A DNA stretch of 64,000 nt from Candidatus Nanohalarchaeota archaeon (GTDB lineage Archaea > Nanohalarchaeota > Nanosalinia > Nanosalinales > JAFCCC01): positions 62,001 through 126,000 of the forward strand of contig JAFCCC010000001.1 of assembly GCA_017610385.1 (NCBI GenBank), given 5' to 3'. Shown in pieces: positions 45,315-56,886 of this stretch (the stretch's first letter is position 1; every line of letters begins with the position of its first letter). The notes beneath the pieces are model-generated. The model ran no database searches, was not told the DNA's origin, and saw only the letters and a program-made list of their open reading frames with translations. Both the position numbers and the translations under genes were made by a program.

Positions 45315-46393
45315 GTGAGTGCAGTTATAAAAATATTCAACCAAATAAAAACAATGAAAAATGAGGAAATAAAAACTGTCGCGATAATCAATGAAGACTG
45401 TGTGGGCACGAGCAAGGGACGATATGCTATACAGATGGCGAAATTGCTTAATAAAAAAATCAAAGTTAAACTTTTTCTAAGAGATACTGCACCATATAAC
45501 TCCGAATTTGTTGTGAAAGTAAAAACATTTAAAACAAAGATAAGAATACTTGCCGGCCTAGGTTATTATATTCCTTTATTTTTTAAATTAAGAAAAGACA
45601 AATCTATTGACATTATTCACGCTCAAGATGATAAAACTGGTGCTTTTGCAATCGTTTTAAAAAAACCGCTAATAAGTACCTTTTGCGATGCTATTCCGTT
45701 CAACTTTAACTTCCCATTTAATTTTCAGGGGGTTGCACATCTTTTTACATAAAGCTAAATCAATTGTAGTCATTTCGAACAGCACAGGAAATTTGTTGAT
45801 AAAAAAATATTCATCACTCTCAAAAAAGGTTGTACCGATTCATCTTGGAGTAGATATAAATAAATTTCAGCCGAGTGTCAAGAAAAATCCGGACCACCCA
45901 AACCTAGGAATATTGGGCAATTTGGATCAACAATTAGCAGCCGTTTTTGAAAGGATTTTGAAGGAATACAGAAAAAATGCGGGACTCGATCTTGCAGGAA
46001 AAGGTCTTTCTAAAAAATTCAGTCAATTCAACTGCATCCAGGAAATTATTTTTAAGGGTTTTGTAAAAAGAGTCAGAGCTTCCGAAACATTATCAAAACA
46101 TTGATATTTTTGTATACAAAACAAATGTAGAATGATTTGGACTAATTCCATTAGAAGCTATGGCGTGTGGGTGTGCGGTGGTTGCAATTAATGTGGACTC
46201 CTTACCAGAAGTAATTAAAGATGGTGGGTTGCTTGTAGAAAACACAGAAGATGCGTTTTACAGTGCCATCAAAAGATTAATAGAAAATAAAAACCTCAGA
46301 GAAGAATATCAAAAGAAAGGACGAGAACGTGCTAAAAAATTAACTTGGGAAAATGTGCGAAGAAACATTTGGAACCTTATAAGAAAGTTTTAA
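45315..46393 (+). pseudogene. degenerate glycosyltransferase family 4
   Basis: three ORF pieces in order with two frame changes (about 45.73 kb and 46.08 kb) and an in-frame TGA in VYKTNVE*FGLIPLEAMACG. Confidence 0.85.
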
Positions 46394-46435: not shown

Positions 46436-47911
46436 TTATTTTCTGACCGGGGTAAATTTCCTGATCATTTCTTTGTCTTTTTTATCAAATCCTTTTAGTA
46501 AATACATTACCGAAAAATAAAGTACTATAGCTAAAAAAATAATTACAACCATCTTCATGATTTTGGGTAAAGAAGTTTGTAAAATTAAAATGGTTGAAAA
46601 AGCCATAATCGCAGAAGAAATAATTGGCTTAAAAATGTAACTTAAGTTTAGTTTTATTTTTTTTCTTATAAACTTAATAGAAAGTAGGAATAATAATATA
46701 AGAGAAGTAACTGTGGCTATTGCGGCTCCATTAATACCCCATAACGGAATTAAGAAATAATTCAGAATTACATTTAAAATTGCTGCAATGAATGTATACT
46801 TCATTATCTTTCTAGGCTCATTTATTCCTGCAATAAAGCTCCTAGAAATCACAATCAAAGAAGTGAAAATTGTTCCTATACTTAAAATTCTAAATGCGGG
46901 AACTGCTGCCAAGTATTCTGAAGTAAATAAAATCTGAATAATTGGTTTAGCTAATAAAAAAGATCCTGTGGCCGCTGGAAGAATGAAATAAATAGAATAT
47001 TTTAATGATCGATTAAAAATCTCACCCAAACTTTTTTTATCTTTTTTTGCATTTAATTGAGAAATCATGGGAAATAATGCTACTGCTAATGCAGCCATTA
47101 CCATACTTAGCAGACCTACGACAGGTAGAGCAACATTATAATAACCAACATCTTTCGCTGTTAAAAAATAACCTATAAAAAACGAATCAGTCCATCCTAA
47201 AAACGTTGCTGCAATCCCTGCCATAAAAAGTGGAACTCCAAAACTAAGTAGTTTTTTTGCTAAGTTAAACTCTGCTTTTTTGAAAATTATGGGTGTTGTG
47301 TGTTTGTAAGCTACAACAAGAAAAACGAACATCACAAAAAAACTCAAAGAATAAGCCCAAGTTGCTCCGAGAATCTTGAAACCTAAACTGAAAAATAAAA
47401 TTGTAAGTAAAAACTTTGAACCTTTTTCAATTACACCAGAGAAAGAAAGAATTCCCATCTTTTGAAATCCTGTGAGTACTCCACTAAAAAGACCGCTAAA
47501 TAAACTAAAAAATACTGCTAATGATCCGATTTTGAAAGGAATTACTGCTAAGGGATTATGAAAAACATTTATTGCAAAAAAGCCTGAAAGAAAAAATAAT
47601 AAAACTGAACCTAAAGTCGCTGTGAAAACGGTAATTGGTGCGGCAGTGGAAAAAATCGTATGAATCTCTTTCTTTTGAGAAATGTATTCAGAAGTATATT
47701 TGGTTATTGCACTTGGAAGTCCTAAAGAAAAAAAGGTTGTAAAAAATCCGACCATCATTAAAACCAAAGAGAATACTCCATATTCTTCTGGTCCAAGACC
47801 TCTGGCTAAAATTATCTTATAAAAAAAAGAAATAAAATATCCTGCAAGTGAACCCATAAAAAGTAAGCTGGTCCCTTTGGCTATTTTTACAGTTAGGTTC
47901 TCTGGGTTCAT
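46436..47911 (-). CDS. polysaccharide flippase (Wzx/AglR-like, MATE/MOP fold)
   Basis: KGTSLLFMGSLAGYFISFFYKIILARGLGPEEYGVFSLV; about 12-14 TM. Confidence 0.9.
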   Translation of the reverse strand: MNPENLTVKIAKGTSLLFMGSLAGYFISFFYKIILARGLGPEEYGVFSLVLMMVGFFTTFFSLGLPSAITKYTSEYISQKKEIHTIFSTAAPITVFTATLGSVLLFFLSGFFAINVFHNPLAVIPFKIGSLAVFFSLFSGLFSGVLTGFQKMGILSFSGVIEKGSKFLLTILFFSLGFKILGATWAYSLSFFVMFVFLVVAYKHTTPIIFKKAEFNLAKKLLSFGVPLFMAGIAATFLGWTDSFFIGYFLTAKDVGYYNVALPVVGLLSMVMAALAVALFPMISQLNAKKDKKSLGEIFNRSLKYSIYFILPAATGSFLLAKPIIQILFTSEYLAAVPAFRILSIGTIFTSLIVISRSFIAGINEPRKIMKYTFIAAILNVILNYFLIPLWGINGAAIATVTSLILLFLLSIKFIRKKIKLNLSYIFKPIISSAIMAFSTILILQTSLPKIMKMVVIIFLAIVLYFSVMYLLKGFDKKDKEMIRKFTPVRK

Positions 47912-48894: not shown

Positions 48895-49419
48895 CTAGTA
48901 ATTGCATTCCTTTAAAAATGAAATAATTTCAGTTACAGATTTGTTTGGTGCTTCTTCATAAGTATTTACAATTATTTCTGGATTTGTGGGCGGTTCGTAA
49001 GGAACATTTTCTGAAACACCTATAAAGTTTTCAATTTCGCCCCCAAGGGCCCTTTTGTAAAGCCCCTTAATGTCTCTTTTAATGCAATATTTCAAAGAGC
49101 AGTTTACATAAACTTCTATAAATTCATCGCCCAACCTTTGCCTTGCAAATCTTCTAGACACTGCAAATGGAGAAATTATTGGAACTAATATGAAATCATA
49201 ATTTTCTTTTTCTTTGGCACAAATTTCGGCAATGAGTCTGTTATTTTCTTTAATATCTTCTGGAGTAAATCCTAAATGTGTATGAAATTTCGATCTAACT
49301 ACATCTCCGTCTAGTACAAGTGTTTTTTTGTGTTTTAGAAATGGGTGTTTTATCAAGGCATTAGAAATTGTTGTTTTCCCTGATCCAGAAAGTCCGGTGA
49401 ACCAAATTATTTTTCCCAT
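48895..49419 (-). CDS. cysC: adenylylsulfate kinase
   Basis: WFTGLSGSGKTTISNAL, LDGDVVRSKFHTHLGFTPEDIKENNR. Confidence 0.93.
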   Translation of the reverse strand: MGKIIWFTGLSGSGKTTISNALIKHPFLKHKKTLVLDGDVVRSKFHTHLGFTPEDIKENNRLIAEICAKEKENYDFILVPIISPFAVSRRFARQRLGDEFIEVYVNCSLKYCIKRDIKGLYKRALGGEIENFIGVSENVPYEPPTNPEIIVNTYEEAPNKSVTEIISFLKECNY

Positions 49420-51632
49420 TACAAATCACTTACAAAAACTTTTTCCCCTGTGTTAATCTTGTTTATAATCAATTGAGAGATTTCTGGTCTCATAAACCAT
49501 TCAGGGGGTTTTTTTCCTTGCATCAATAGTTTTCTAGCATGAGTTCCTGAAATGTGTTTTTTTTGAGTCTCAGGGTGATCTAAATAATCATCTTCATGTA
49601 TGTGTTTGTTTTCCAATGTTGAATAAAATACCTTGTTATATTTTATAGGAATAATTCCTATTTCCTCTTTTCCAAATTGGTCAAATATTTTGTGAGATGC
49701 CTGCGGATCATAGTAATTTTTAACTCCTGTGTGATCTCTGCCTACAATAAAGTGACTGCATCCAAAATTTTTTCGAACTAATGCAGTAAAGACCGCTTCT
49801 CTCGGTCCTGCGTATCGAGAATATGAAGAAAATGTTGAAAAAATTACCTTACCTTTCGGATAAATTTCGTTTATCATTTTTTCATAAGTTGTAATTATGG
49901 CACTTGCCTCAAAATCACCCTTTTTCTTTTTTCCTATAATGGGGTGAACAAATAGACCATCACACAAAAATTTCTTCATGGCATCCATTTGAATAAACTC
50001 ATGAGATCTATGAATAACATTTCTAGTATGAAACGCAACAATTTTACTCCATCCTCTCTCAGAAAAAATTCTTCTAATTTGTCTGGGTGTTAAATTATAT
50101 AACTGAAAACCATTGTTTCTTCTTTTAATTAGATCTATTTTTCCTGCTAAAAAATACTGCCCCGAATCAAAAAAAGTTTTAACTCCAGGGTGATTCAAAT
50201 CAGTTGTTCCAAACCATTTTTTTGCTGTGTCTTGCATATTTACTTGATAAATTTGTTCTAAATGTAATAGTGCGTGCGGTTGAGAATCCTTGTTATAAAC
50301 AAGTAAAACATCTTGACCGTCCTGTAAGCCCTCGATGGTTTTAGTCTGTAATATTATTGGCATAGGCCACACAACACCGTTTTTAAGTCTCATTGTGTGC
50401 AAAACAGACATTAGATTTTCTTTATTCATAAAACCTTCTAAAGGGCTAAATGCTCCACAGGCAATTTGTTCAACATCCATAAGATTTGTTTCATCAATGC
50501 TAATTTTTGGCATTGTGAGCATTTGTTGTGAATCAAATCCTTTTTTTATATATCTCTCAATTAGTTTGCCTCCGTGGGGTGGCACCAACAAATTGTCTGT
50601 AGTATCTGTTATATTGAATTCCGATAAATCTTTGTTTTTATCAAATTCACGTATTAGTGCAGAAAGCATATTCAAAGTTTCTATGGGATAGTTCCCGATT
50701 GCAGTCTCTTTTGTTAGAACAAATCCTGTTGCACCGTCAAATAAAGTATTTATGACATCGTTAACTTCTGATTTTGAGGGTTTACGACATACAGACATAT
50801 TTTCAAGGGTATTCGTAGCAACATAAACTTCTTTATTCAATTCATTTGCTTTTTTTAAAATGCTTTTTTGAACAAAGGGTAGTTTCTGCAAAGGTACTTC
50901 TCTGCTTAAATCTCCTCGATCTATTAAAATTCCTTCAGAAAACTCTAAAAGCTCTTCTAAATTCTCGAGAGCTTCTCTGGTTTCAATTTTGGTTAAAAAT
51001 GTTGCATCACAATATAATTTCTGAAATTCCAGAAGATCTTTTTTATTATGAATGAAAGAAAGACTAAATTGTTTTACTCCGAGTTTTTTTGCGAGTTCTA
51101 TTGCAAATCTGTCTTTTTCACTAAAGGTTGGAGCATCTAACTTTGGTTCTAAATGAGCTCCTTTTTGTCCACCAATCTTACCGCCCAATAAAACAGTACC
51201 TTCTACAAAACCTTCATGAATTGTTGAGGTGTTACTTATTTTAATTAATGCGGAATTAAAATCAAGGGAAATCAGTGTCCCTTCTTCAAGTTGTTCAACA
51301 ACAGTTAAAGGTCTCAGAAAAAATGTTTTGTTGTCTGTCTCTACTTCTCGATTGTATATTCGAATTTTATCTCCTTCTTCGAAAGTGATTTCATGGACAT
51401 TTCCTGTCCGTATTTGGCGCCCTTCTGTATCTAACATAATTGGTACACCATATGTTTTTAATTCTATAATTTTCTTTTCAATGTCTTCTTTAGAGGTATG
51501 AGACAAATTTATGCGAAAATAATCTACAGATCTATCTTTTAATTTCTTGAGAACTTCGGGGTTAAATGATGCTTCTCCAATTGTAGCAATTATTTTTATG
51601 TTCTTAATCATAATTATCTCATGTGCATTCAT
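49419..51632 (-). CDS. sat: pyruvate kinase-like domain fused to sulfate adenylyltransferase (ATP sulfurylase)
   Basis: N-part: FRINLSHTSKE, LDTEGRQIRTG, TKIETREALENLEELLEFSEGILIDRGDLSREVP, VATNTLENM, KETAIGNYP; C-part: GAFSPLEGFM, VAFHTRNVIHRSHEF, VGRDHTGVKNYYDP. Confidence 0.92.
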   Translation of the reverse strand: MNAHEIIMIKNIKIIATIGEASFNPEVLKKLKDRSVDYFRINLSHTSKEDIEKKIIELKTYGVPIMLDTEGRQIRTGNVHEITFEEGDKIRIYNREVETDNKTFFLRPLTVVEQLEEGTLISLDFNSALIKISNTSTIHEGFVEGTVLLGGKIGGQKGAHLEPKLDAPTFSEKDRFAIELAKKLGVKQFSLSFIHNKKDLLEFQKLYCDATFLTKIETREALENLEELLEFSEGILIDRGDLSREVPLQKLPFVQKSILKKANELNKEVYVATNTLENMSVCRKPSKSEVNDVINTLFDGATGFVLTKETAIGNYPIETLNMLSALIREFDKNKDLSEFNITDTTDNLLVPPHGGKLIERYIKKGFDSQQMLTMPKISIDETNLMDVEQIACGAFSPLEGFMNKENLMSVLHTMRLKNGVVWPMPIILQTKTIEGLQDGQDVLLVYNKDSQPHALLHLEQIYQVNMQDTAKKWFGTTDLNHPGVKTFFDSGQYFLAGKIDLIKRRNNGFQLYNLTPRQIRRIFSERGWSKIVAFHTRNVIHRSHEFIQMDAMKKFLCDGLFVHPIIGKKKKGDFEASAIITTYEKMINEIYPKGKVIFSTFSSYSRYAGPREAVFTALVRKNFGCSHFIVGRDHTGVKNYYDPQASHKIFDQFGKEEIGIIPIKYNKVFYSTLENKHIHEDDYLDHPETQKKHISGTHARKLLMQGKKPPEWFMRPEISQLIINKINTGEKVFVSDL

Positions 51633-52229: not shown

Positions 52230-53258
52230 ATGATTATCCAAAAATATCATTATTTTGGAGAATTTGGGGGATTAATTTTTGTGGTTTTGGGCGGATTAGA
52301 AAATTTTTTTAATCTTTATCCCTCTGTAAAATTAGAAATTTGCACGTATAGAAACTATGGAATATTATTAGAACATCTGTTTCCAAAAAATGTAAGAGCC
52401 ACCACAATAAAGTGGAATTTTAAAGATAATTTGAGAATAGGTTATGAATATGCAGATAGAGATTTTATAAATAATTTACATAAGAAAGGATATTTAAAAA
52501 ATGTTATTGTTCTTTTTAAACAATTTTCTAATGATAAAATGGCTGTAAAATGTTTTAATAATCTATGTTTTAACGTATTTGATAAAGATGATGCGATATA
52601 TTTCAGATTAAAAAAACCTATTACCTATGGGAAAAAGTCTTCTCGTCCAAAATACATAAGCATTTTCCCAAGATTTCGGAAATTGGATAGTAAAAGAAAT
52701 ATTAGTAAAAAAGATTGGGAATACATACTTAAAATTCTAAAATCTTATTATAAAAATTATAAAATTGTCGTTCATGGCTCAAATAACGAATTTTTAAAAT
52801 TGAATATTGATGATGCAATTTATCCTAAAAATATTTTAGAACAAATTTATTATTTGAATAATTCCCGCGTATGTGTTAGCCCTAATTCTGGGTTTGCACA
52901 TTTTGCAGTATATTGCAAATGTCCTCTACTTGTTATCGGTATGGGCTATTGGGAATACGAAGACATAAATCCTTTTAAAGTTCCTATAAAAATAACAGAC
53001 GTAAAACACGTACGAAACTCTAATGTTTTGAGAAATTTCCTTGATAAAGTTGAAAATACAAAAGATAATTCAGAAATCAGAAAATCTTTTTATGATTTTT
53101 TATGGATTCATTATAGACAATCAAAGCGTATTGTAGGTACTTTTCTAAAGTATTATATCCCAAAAGCTTATTATTTGCTTCGGGGTCCAGATAGTTTTGA
53201 TTCATATTCTGCAAAGTTAAAGAAGCAGATTTTTGACGGAATTCAAGGACGAGAGTAA
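52230..53258 (+). CDS. putative GT-B (GT9-like) glycosyltransferase, paralogue A
   Basis: YISIFPRFRKLDSKRNISKKDW, IVVHGSNNEF, SRVCVSPNSGFAHFAVYCKCPLLVI. Confidence 0.6.
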   Translation: MIIQKYHYFGEFGGLIFVVLGGLENFFNLYPSVKLEICTYRNYGILLEHLFPKNVRATTIKWNFKDNLRIGYEYADRDFINNLHKKGYLKNVIVLFKQFSNDKMAVKCFNNLCFNVFDKDDAIYFRLKKPITYGKKSSRPKYISIFPRFRKLDSKRNISKKDWEYILKILKSYYKNYKIVVHGSNNEFLKLNIDDAIYPKNILEQIYYLNNSRVCVSPNSGFAHFAVYCKCPLLVIGMGYWEYEDINPFKVPIKITDVKHVRNSNVLRNFLDKVENTKDNSEIRKSFYDFLWIHYRQSKRIVGTFLKYYIPKAYYLLRGPDSFDSYSAKLKKQIFDGIQGRE

Positions 53259-54888: not shown

Positions 54889-55973
54889 ATCAAGAATTTG
54901 ACTGGTTAATATCTGACGTAGATGGTATTCTAACAGATGGCGGTCATTATTATACTGCAGAGGGAAAGCTTATGAAAAAATTTGGAAGTAATGATAAAGA
55001 TGCCCTAAAGAAACTAAATGAATTATATGTTAAAGAAATTGTTTTTATTACTGCAGACAAATTAGGTTACTCCATTTCCTGCAAGAGAATTAAGCGAGAT
55101 TGGGGTCTTAATTTGAAGTTGATACCGATAGATAAAAGAAATGATTTTTTTAAGCAATTAAAAGGCAAAAAAATCTATATCGGGGATGGAATTCATGATG
55201 CGGAAGATTTCGAAGGAATAGATTTGTCTTTTGCTTTAAATAATTCTACACCGCAAGCAAAGAAAAACGCTTCAGTGGTTTTAGACACATCTAGCGGAAA
55301 TAACGTATTTCCATACCTTTTAGAATTCTTGGGTCGCCGAAAGTTAAAAATTGAAAAACCTACTGAGTCTGAAGAAACCTTAGACGCTTCTGAATTATAT
55401 AGGATGTTAAAACAAATCAATTTGATTCCAGAAAAACGACAAGAAATTAATAGATTTTGTAATTCTATTAAAAATAGTTATACCGAAAAAAACAAAATTG
55501 TTTTGTGTGGTGTCGGGAAAAACGCGCTTCTAGCGAATTTAATTTGTGAATTTTTATATCCATATAACATTACGTCAGTAGTTTTAGATCCGCATAGGGC
55601 GTTGCATGGAAATTTAGGTCTTCTAGAAAAAGACGACATATTAATTATGACTTCTAAAAGTGGTAATACTGCAGAATTAGTTCACTTGATGAAATGTCTT
55701 CAAAATAAGGGAGATATCGAAAATAAATTTTTACTTACATGTAATAAAGACTGTGAACTGGCGAAATACGATATAAAATGTATCCTTTCTGTCCCTGTAT
55801 CTGATGAAGTTTCGCGATTTAATCATTCTCCTCAGACAACTTTCGTGGTTTTTGCAATTATTTTATTTTTGGTGGTAAATGCTTTAGCAAATACAAAAGA
55901 AATGACTCAGATAGATTATTTGTTGAATCACCAAGCAGGAGAAATCGGAAAGGTTTTACGCAATGAAAGATAA
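54885..55973 (+). CDS. HAD phosphatase (KdsC-like) fused to SIS domain (KdsD-like)
   Basis: N-part WLISDVDGILTDGGHYYTAEG...ITADKLG...IGDGIHDAEDF; C-part VLCGVGKNALLANL...HRALHGNLGLLEKDDILIMTSKSGNTAELVHL. Confidence 0.87.
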   Translation: MNQEFDWLISDVDGILTDGGHYYTAEGKLMKKFGSNDKDALKKLNELYVKEIVFITADKLGYSISCKRIKRDWGLNLKLIPIDKRNDFFKQLKGKKIYIGDGIHDAEDFEGIDLSFALNNSTPQAKKNASVVLDTSSGNNVFPYLLEFLGRRKLKIEKPTESEETLDASELYRMLKQINLIPEKRQEINRFCNSIKNSYTEKNKIVLCGVGKNALLANLICEFLYPYNITSVVLDPHRALHGNLGLLEKDDILIMTSKSGNTAELVHLMKCLQNKGDIENKFLLTCNKDCELAKYDIKCILSVPVSDEVSRFNHSPQTTFVVFAIILFLVVNALANTKEMTQIDYLLNHQAGEIGKVLRNER

Positions 55974-56886
55974 ATACTGCTATTTTGGAGAATTTGGATA
56001 TTTGCATATGGAGCTTTTAGGCAGTTTAGAGAAATACTTTACACAAAACCCTAAAAAGAAACTTGAATTATGCACTTATTTACAGTATGGCCAATTATTA
56101 TCGTATTTATTTCCCGAGAATTTGATTATTTCAACCATTTCTTGGGACTTTAACGAGCGATTTAGATGTGGACACCAATATACTGAACAACACTTCCAAG
56201 AGCAATTACAAAGGGGGGGTTATACTAAAAACCTCATTAATTTTTTACGAGAAAATGTGAATTGTGATGAGCGTGCTAAAGGCTGTTTTGCAAATAGGTT
56301 TTTGAGTTCTGTATTAAATGTTAGAATCCATTTTATTTCTAAAGCATTAACGTATGGAAAAGCAAAGAAAAAACAATATCTCAGCATTTTTCCGAGACTC
56401 CGAAATTTAGATGCTTATCGAAATCTGGATCAAAAAACTTGGAAAACAATAATTGATTATCTTTTAGAAACATATCCTTACAAAATCGTAGTTCATGGAG
56501 CTGAATCAGAATTTATGAAATTTGACAATCCTCGCTTAGTATACCCAAAATCGCCGTTAGAACAAATTAAATATTTTAATGAATCTTTTGTTTGTATTAC
56601 AACAACATCGGGTATAGCACAGTTTGCGGCGAATTGTGCGTGCGATGTACTAATTCTAGATAAATTCTATGGATTAGTTCAAGATTTTAATCCTTTTAAT
56701 AGAATAATCACGATGTGTAATCCAAAACAGTTGTTAGAAACAACACTATTAGAAAAAGTAATTCATCTGAGTACTGTGGAAGAAAGTGGAACGCAATTCC
56801 GAGAATCTCTCAAAAATAGGTTCTGGTACAATCAAATGAGATACAAAGTTCTTGTAGGTAATAAACTACAGAAACTTATGAAGTAA
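55963..56886 (+). CDS. putative GT-B (GT9-like) glycosyltransferase, paralogue B
   Basis: YCYFGEFGYLHMELLGSLEKYF... aligns with paralogue A; YLSIFPRLRNLDAYRNLDQKTW. Confidence 0.6.
   Translation: MKDKYCYFGEFGYLHMELLGSLEKYFTQNPKKKLELCTYLQYGQLLSYLFPENLIISTISWDFNERFRCGHQYTEQHFQEQLQRGGYTKNLINFLRENVNCDERAKGCFANRFLSSVLNVRIHFISKALTYGKAKKKQYLSIFPRLRNLDAYRNLDQKTWKTIIDYLLETYPYKIVVHGAESEFMKFDNPRLVYPKSPLEQIKYFNESFVCITTTSGIAQFAANCACDVLILDKFYGLVQDFNPFNRIITMCNPKQLLETTLLEKVIHLSTVEESGTQFRESLKNRFWYNQMRYKVLVGNKLQKLMK

Follow-up and report, generated by a model that had tools for sequence, protein, structure and literature searches.

A pyruvate kinase subfamily recurrently fused to ATP sulfurylase: a plausible PEP-driven sulfate-activation enzyme in archaea and bacteria

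Introduction

Why should a pyruvate kinase (PK) be joined to an ATP sulfurylase (Sat)? The question is raised by a gene of a Candidatus Nanohalarchaeota archaeon that lies in a 64,000-nucleotide stretch of contig JAFCCC010000001.1 (GenBank assembly GCA_017610385.1), hereafter called the window. An earlier note, made from the letters of this stretch, had described one uninterrupted 737 amino acid frame carrying a PK barrel and a complete Sat domain, and had suggested that PEP-driven local ATP supply could pull APS synthesis. We have examined the fusion, its relatives and its neighbors with this suggestion in mind.

Results

A real fusion of two enzymes

Profile searches of both halves bear out the single frame, which is read from the minus strand (Table 1); the plus strand across the same interval is full of stops. 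The PK half matches PF00224 with an E-value of 1.5e-55 (189 bits against a curated cut-off of 30; Pfam). The Sat half follows directly after the barrel and is complete, with PUA_2 (5.8e-45) and ATP-sulfurylase (1.3e-75) domains both above their cut-offs. The Pfam search found no PK_C domain in the 737 amino acids, in line with the absence of the PK C-terminal domain noticed earlier at the junction, and every motif quoted in the earlier note (RINLSH, DTEGRQIRTG, TKIET, RGDLSREVP, TRNVIHRSHE, GRDHTG) is present. Against the NCBIfam equivalogs, the protein falls below the cut-off for pyruvate kinase (TIGR01064; 226 versus 306.4 bits) and above that for sulfate adenylyltransferase (TIGR00339; 359.4 versus 322.95).

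An AlphaFold2 model computed with 40 relatives as input is confident for both halves and for the whole (mean pLDDT 91.6, pTM 0.86). The first eight residues are modeled with very low confidence, so the true start of the protein may be Met8. A Foldseek search with this model returned ATP sulfurylases (closest solved structure 8a8d, TM 0.93 on target) and pyruvate kinases. Could the fusion be an artefact of assembly? This is ruled out, since full-length homologues occur in dozens of independent genomes and also on two complete plasmids of rhizobia (39-40% identity over 96-97%). PK-Sat is genuine and recurrent, and joins a distinct subfamily of PK to enzymes of sulfate activation.

Table 1. Features of the fusion and its neighbors in the window
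Feature	Position	Strand	Residues of fusion	Basis and remarks
PK-Sat fusion gene, 737 aa	49419..51632	minus (start 51632, end 49419)		one open frame; Pfam, NCBIfam, AlphaFold2
PK barrel and B domain	50676..51605	minus	10-319	PF00224, without PK C-terminal domain
Linker			~330-350	
ATP sulfurylase half	49464..50582	minus	351-723	PUA_2 (351-504) and ATP-sulfurylase catalytic domain (512-723)
APS-kinase-like CysC, 174 aa	48895..49419	minus		PF01583, TIGR00455; variant APS-binding motif DIKENNRLI
Sulfotransferase, 250 aa	48137..48889	plus		PF00685 / PF13469; convergent neighbor of cysC
Polysaccharide flippase (Polysacc_synt / MATE)	46436..47911	minus		part of surface-polysaccharide cluster

Gene neighborhood in the window

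The start codon of cysC overlaps the stop codon of the fusion by one base (TAATG), and since cysC thus begins inside that stop codon, translational coupling of the two genes is suggested. The CysC protein scores 156 bits against PF01583 and 169.9 bits against TIGR00455 (cut-off 138.7), and the sulfotransferase 57.4 bits against PF00685 (cut-off 22; Pfam). Around these genes lie glycosyltransferase, flippase, methyltransferase and sugar-nucleotide genes; the flippase belongs to a neighbor family common to the window locus and nine other loci.

A few further features of this region deserve mention. At 45315-46104 on the plus strand, a glycosyltransferase-like region is split between two overlapping frames (145 and 138 amino acids) in a manner resembling a frameshift. 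The proteins encoded by two plus-strand genes, at 52230-53258 and 55963-56886, resemble each other on visual inspection, and the former has no Pfam match. Between the two genes lie a nucleotidyltransferase/kinase gene and a SIS-domain gene, and the two proteins are possibly unusual glycosyltransferases.

Distribution and architectures of the family

Scanning GTDB genomes with the PK portion of the protein yielded 70 loci, and two more from plasmids brought the set to 72; the scan used two short patterns, and all family counts are lower bounds. The hosts include archaea (Pacearchaeota, Woesearchaeota, Thermoplasmata) and bacteria (Omnitrophota, Planctomycetota, Gemmatimonadota, KSB1, Acidobacteria, Parcubacteria, and alpha-, gamma- and deltaproteobacteria), among them the cultured Mesorhizobium, Sinorhizobium and Methyloversatilis. 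PK and Sat share one chain in 52 of the 72 relatives (49 PK-Sat, three PK-Sat-CysC), and CysC lies directly downstream in 26 of the 49 PK-Sat loci. One member of the PK-Sat set, from candidate division KSB1 (L073:4106-7315), is a single sulfotransferase-PK-Sat protein of 1069 amino acids. Two PK-CysC fusions and four loci with PK followed by a CysC gene have no Sat, and in 14 loci the PK stands alone or is cut by a contig end. Eleven loci of the Thermoplasmata type have PK alone, mostly away from recognizable sulfation genes. Examples include L030, L034 and L055, where the solo PKs (approximately 350 amino acids) carry the same signature residues and have neighbors with no clear link to sulfation.

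The spread is patchy: in an even sample of the phylum that contains the Pacearchaeota, the full fusion is present in six of 279 genomes. No viral relative was found; matches in phage records mostly cover just the PK half, with identities of about 25-38%. Nor did the open-licence papers searched contain a description of the PK-Sat fusion, so that nothing there points to the widely described housekeeping enzyme that the earlier note had allowed for.

Sulfotransferases, collected with an iterative HMM (eleven confirmed by Pfam), occur within the flanks of 27 of the 72 loci. Twenty of the 31 flanking sulfotransferase genes are within 1.5 kb of the PK locus, where 10.5 would be expected under even placement. 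The candidates of L078 and L083 (430 and 355 amino acids) had no Pfam match. PF01747 Sat was not found in two Omnitrophota (L052, L088) and a SAR11 host (L083), which may use CysDN, the GTP-driven bacterial ATP sulfurylase.

The PK domain is a distinct subfamily with conserved catalytic residues

The window protein keeps active-site R40, N42, S44, D68, T69, R75, K157, K215, E217, D241 and T273. In the alignment of 73 family sequences, 71-73 members retain each catalytic and K+-site residue except Thr69, which is more variable (Ser in nine). The residues of phosphoryl transfer (Lys215, Glu217, Asp241, Thr273, Arg75) are kept in 72 or 73 of 73, in archaea and bacteria; the retention first noticed in one protein thus extends to essentially the whole family. 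At the nucleotide site, 72 of 73 sequences have Thr17, His45 and Lys157, and 69 have Pro20, where the window protein has Glu. Lys157 aligns with Lys206 of rabbit PK, a residue in contact with the ribose of the nucleotide (PMC4284704).

Mapping rabbit PK numbering onto the family by motif, and comparing with ordinary-PK control columns that rest on approximately eight valid sequences, we find about eight replacements at the PK site that the 73 family sequences have in common: K70E, P72A/S, E73Q, A238D, G243S, Q274N, S291N, and the SG before ET, which is mostly AA in the family and TK in the window protein. Published work indicates that K114Q (position 70 here) barely changes rabbit PK, and that Gln at position 117 (73 here) occurs in a K+-independent archaeal PK branch. 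By this analogy, some of the replacements appear compatible with activity.

In a tree of 81 PK domains, 57 family members are separated from 24 ordinary PKs by a branch with an SH-aLRT of 100 (quick method). On this sequence tree the family stands as a sister subfamily to ordinary PKs and is not grouped among them. Both the solo PKs of Thermoplasmata and the PK-CysC fusions branch from within the PK-Sat fusions; their lineages have thus probably lost Sat or become split from it. Automatic annotation would probably label such proteins simply as pyruvate kinase or sulfate adenylyltransferase.

A proposed role in sulfate activation

What might such a protein do? The order of the domains, the gene overlap and the conserved catalytic residues, together with the repeated fusion or linkage of one PK clade with Sat, CysC and sulfotransferases among polysaccharide genes, make a PEP-driven mechanism plausible as far as sequence can tell. 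We propose that PK-Sat is a sulfate-activation enzyme with its own PEP-driven ATP-regenerating domain, serving PAPS formation and the sulfation of surface polysaccharide, and we give this proposal an even chance of being right. Sat would convert ATP and sulfate to APS, and CysC, from the overlapping gene, would convert APS to PAPS and release ADP. The PK domain would then use PEP to turn ADP back into ATP. Removal of ADP would relieve product inhibition of APS kinase, ATP would stay high beside Sat, and PAPS would feed a sulfotransferase that decorates surface polysaccharide. PEP and ADP are here the presumed substrates of PK, sulfate that of Sat, and polysaccharide the presumed acceptor; ATP may be channeled or supplied locally.

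The earlier suggestion survives in part. Local ATP supply is its best-supported element, but a direct pull on APS synthesis is not to be expected, because PK consumes ADP and not PPi and thus cannot shift the Sat equilibrium directly. The natural coupling point would be the ADP from APS kinase, and the main effect would be to clear it. Such a role fits the PK-CysC fusions and the PK/CysC gene pairs that have no Sat. In vitro, PK and PEP added to a PAPS synthase remove an ADP-APS dead-end block, and PAPS is otherwise nearly absent (PMC9885120).

Changes at the Sat and CysC sites

The earlier note had not flagged that all three active sites carry family-specific changes. The window Sat keeps HxxH (H541/H544) and GRDH; among the fused Sat domains, H541/H544 are kept in 52 of 53, and R632 and H634 in 50 of 53. 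In ATP sulfurylases the Gln of QxRN contacts sulfate (PMC3779200). The window protein reads AFHTRN where standalone Sats have FQTRN, so that His535 replaces this Gln. His is found at the position in 49 of 53 fused Sat domains and in none of 11 readable standalone Sats. All 11 keep Gln, those of solo-PK genomes included, and the idea that the Sats of solo-PK genomes share the change was accordingly rejected. A woesearchaeal PK-Sat-CysC protein (L027:7998-10793) reads FLSHN, having lost both Gln and Arg, and from this motif its Sat may be inactive.

The window CysC has DIKENNRLI in place of the substrate motif DRxENIRR, with the loss of an Arg. Non-rhizobial CysC partners share DI[K/R]xNN, and the rhizobial partners diverge further. 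The rhizobial cluster is conserved at L019, L020 and Mesorhizobium/Sinorhizobium loci such as L068, and comprises genes for a Wzy-type ligase, a small kinase, PK-Sat, CysC, a Na+/H+ antiporter, a PqqD/HPr-kinase-like protein and a nucleotidyltransferase; its CysC is very divergent and does not have the usual APS-binding motif. Judged from the motifs, the divergence of Sat and CysC could be an adaptation to a complex or could reflect a changed substrate.

The second possibility leads to the main rival of a PAPS-making unit, namely that co-diverged PK-, Sat- and CysC-like enzymes use a different anion or nucleotide, e.g., to make a donor other than PAPS or to phosphorylate an acceptor other than ADP from PEP. 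This rival draws on changes at or near substrate-contact residues throughout the family in all three enzymes: the Gln to His change in Sat, the altered CysC motif and the shared replacements at the PK site, which also count against the PEP-driven reading. CysC-like proteins of capsule clusters can take other substrates, as does the cytidine diphosphoramidate kinase of Campylobacter. Yet sulfotransferases are a frequent identifiable partner, the window Sat and CysC still reach scores above the cut-offs for sulfate adenylyltransferase and apsK, Sat retains HxxH and GRDH, and the PK domain retains most of its ADP-site residues. Literature searches turned up nothing relevant on sulfuryl transfer by PK or on CysC-like kinases with other substrates. 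We regard an altered pathway as possible but rather unlikely. The more specific version, in which a distinct PK subfamily co-evolved with variant Sat and CysC in a PEP-fuelled pathway to a non-PAPS donor, with PK phosphorylating a non-ADP acceptor or with a different activated anion for surface sugars, we consider unlikely.

PEP supply and the place of the fusion in its hosts

Is PEP at hand for such an enzyme? Enolase is present in 23 of 25 fusion-family host genomes searched, so PEP should be available in hosts of the family. In the window genome (788 kb, 93.5% complete), neither enolase nor a GTP-type PEP carboxykinase was detected, which speaks against the PEP-driven reading; 22 of the 28 genomes of its group have enolase. 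Its only PEP-synthase-like protein (L091:1459-3441, on contig C12 of the window genome, G000) has PPDK_N and the mobile domain, no match to the C-terminal PEP/pyruvate domain being found, and carries Lys at the usual catalytic His (GSMSCKLA; residue read by eye). The enolase gene may lie in the missing 6.5%, PEP may come by another route, or the PK may have another substrate here. Two further observations weigh against the PEP-driven reading: the eleven solo-PK loci of the Thermoplasmata type, and three fusion-bearing Pacearchaeota genomes in which no APS kinase was found, perhaps through genome incompleteness.

The phylum group of the window genome is represented by 28 genomes, all from a single order. 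The fusion is missing from the other 27, of which about 15 carry an ordinary PK and one a standalone Sat. Since the nearest relatives of the window fusion are Pacearchaeota proteins (54-58% identity) and the rest of the group has none, the gene was likely acquired by lateral transfer from DPANN archaea.

The fusion is the sole PF00224 match in the window genome, in eight other DPANN genomes searched and in three Omnitrophota genomes, as would be expected if it were simply the PK of glycolysis with Sat as a passenger. But an ordinary PK is found as well in most proteobacterial, planctomycete, gemmatimonad and Thermoplasmata genomes that were searched, the lack of a detected enolase in the window genome is at odds with a glycolytic role, and the domain sits with sulfation genes in polysaccharide clusters and not with glycolytic genes. 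A housekeeping role as the only PK of DPANN archaea thus seems to us quite unlikely.

The earlier note had also raised the idea of a regulator: a PK fold that senses PEP or nucleotides and tunes Sat without turnover. The missing PK C-domain and the family-specific changes in the Sat half would suit such a role, and fungal ATP sulfurylase is regulated by an APS-kinase-like domain fused to it (PMC2275785). However, a pure sensor is not expected to keep its phosphoryl-transfer residues almost without exception, and the same PK domain also occurs as a free protein beside CysC; we judge a non-catalytic regulator very unlikely. A plain housekeeping enzyme and a chance fusion are set aside on the repeated linkage of the PK clade with sulfation genes.

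Discussion

The PEP-driven enzyme proposed here has several known counterparts. Like ordinary pyruvate kinase (PF00224 / TIGR01064), the PK-Sat family has the barrel and B domain, the PEP, Mg2+ and K+ sites and most nucleotide-site residues; it differs in having no C-terminal domain, in scoring below the equivalog cut-off, and in forming a separate clade with signature replacements. CysDN also couples a second energy source to APS synthesis; it is driven by a GTPase and is unrelated in sequence, whereas the extra fuel here would be PEP. PAPS synthases (Sat-APS kinase; animals, fungi, Aquifex) combine the two PAPS steps in one chain, as PK-Sat-CysC does, but they have no PK domain, while in the PK-Sat family CysC is mostly encoded by its own gene and the motifs at the active sites are different. 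In stramenopiles and haptophytes, ATP sulfurylase is fused to an inorganic pyrophosphatase (PMC2275785), again a helper domain for the energetics of APS. The pyrophosphatase pulls directly on the Sat equilibrium by removing PPi, whereas PK would remove ADP and rebuild ATP, and the folds are unrelated. The bench PAPS cascade combines these activities too, with PK, Sat, APS kinase and sulfotransferase (PMC9885120). It uses separate commercial or recombinant enzymes with added pyrophosphatase, where the natural family would join them.

Active sulfate is energetically hard to make, and known lineages use pyrophosphatase fusions, Sat-kinase fusions or a GTPase to do so. If our reading is true, a PEP-powered route, patchily distributed among archaea and bacteria, would add to these solutions and would be nature's version of the bench PAPS recipe. 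The family also suggests that DPANN archaea, Omnitrophota and rhizobia have surface polysaccharides that are sulfated.
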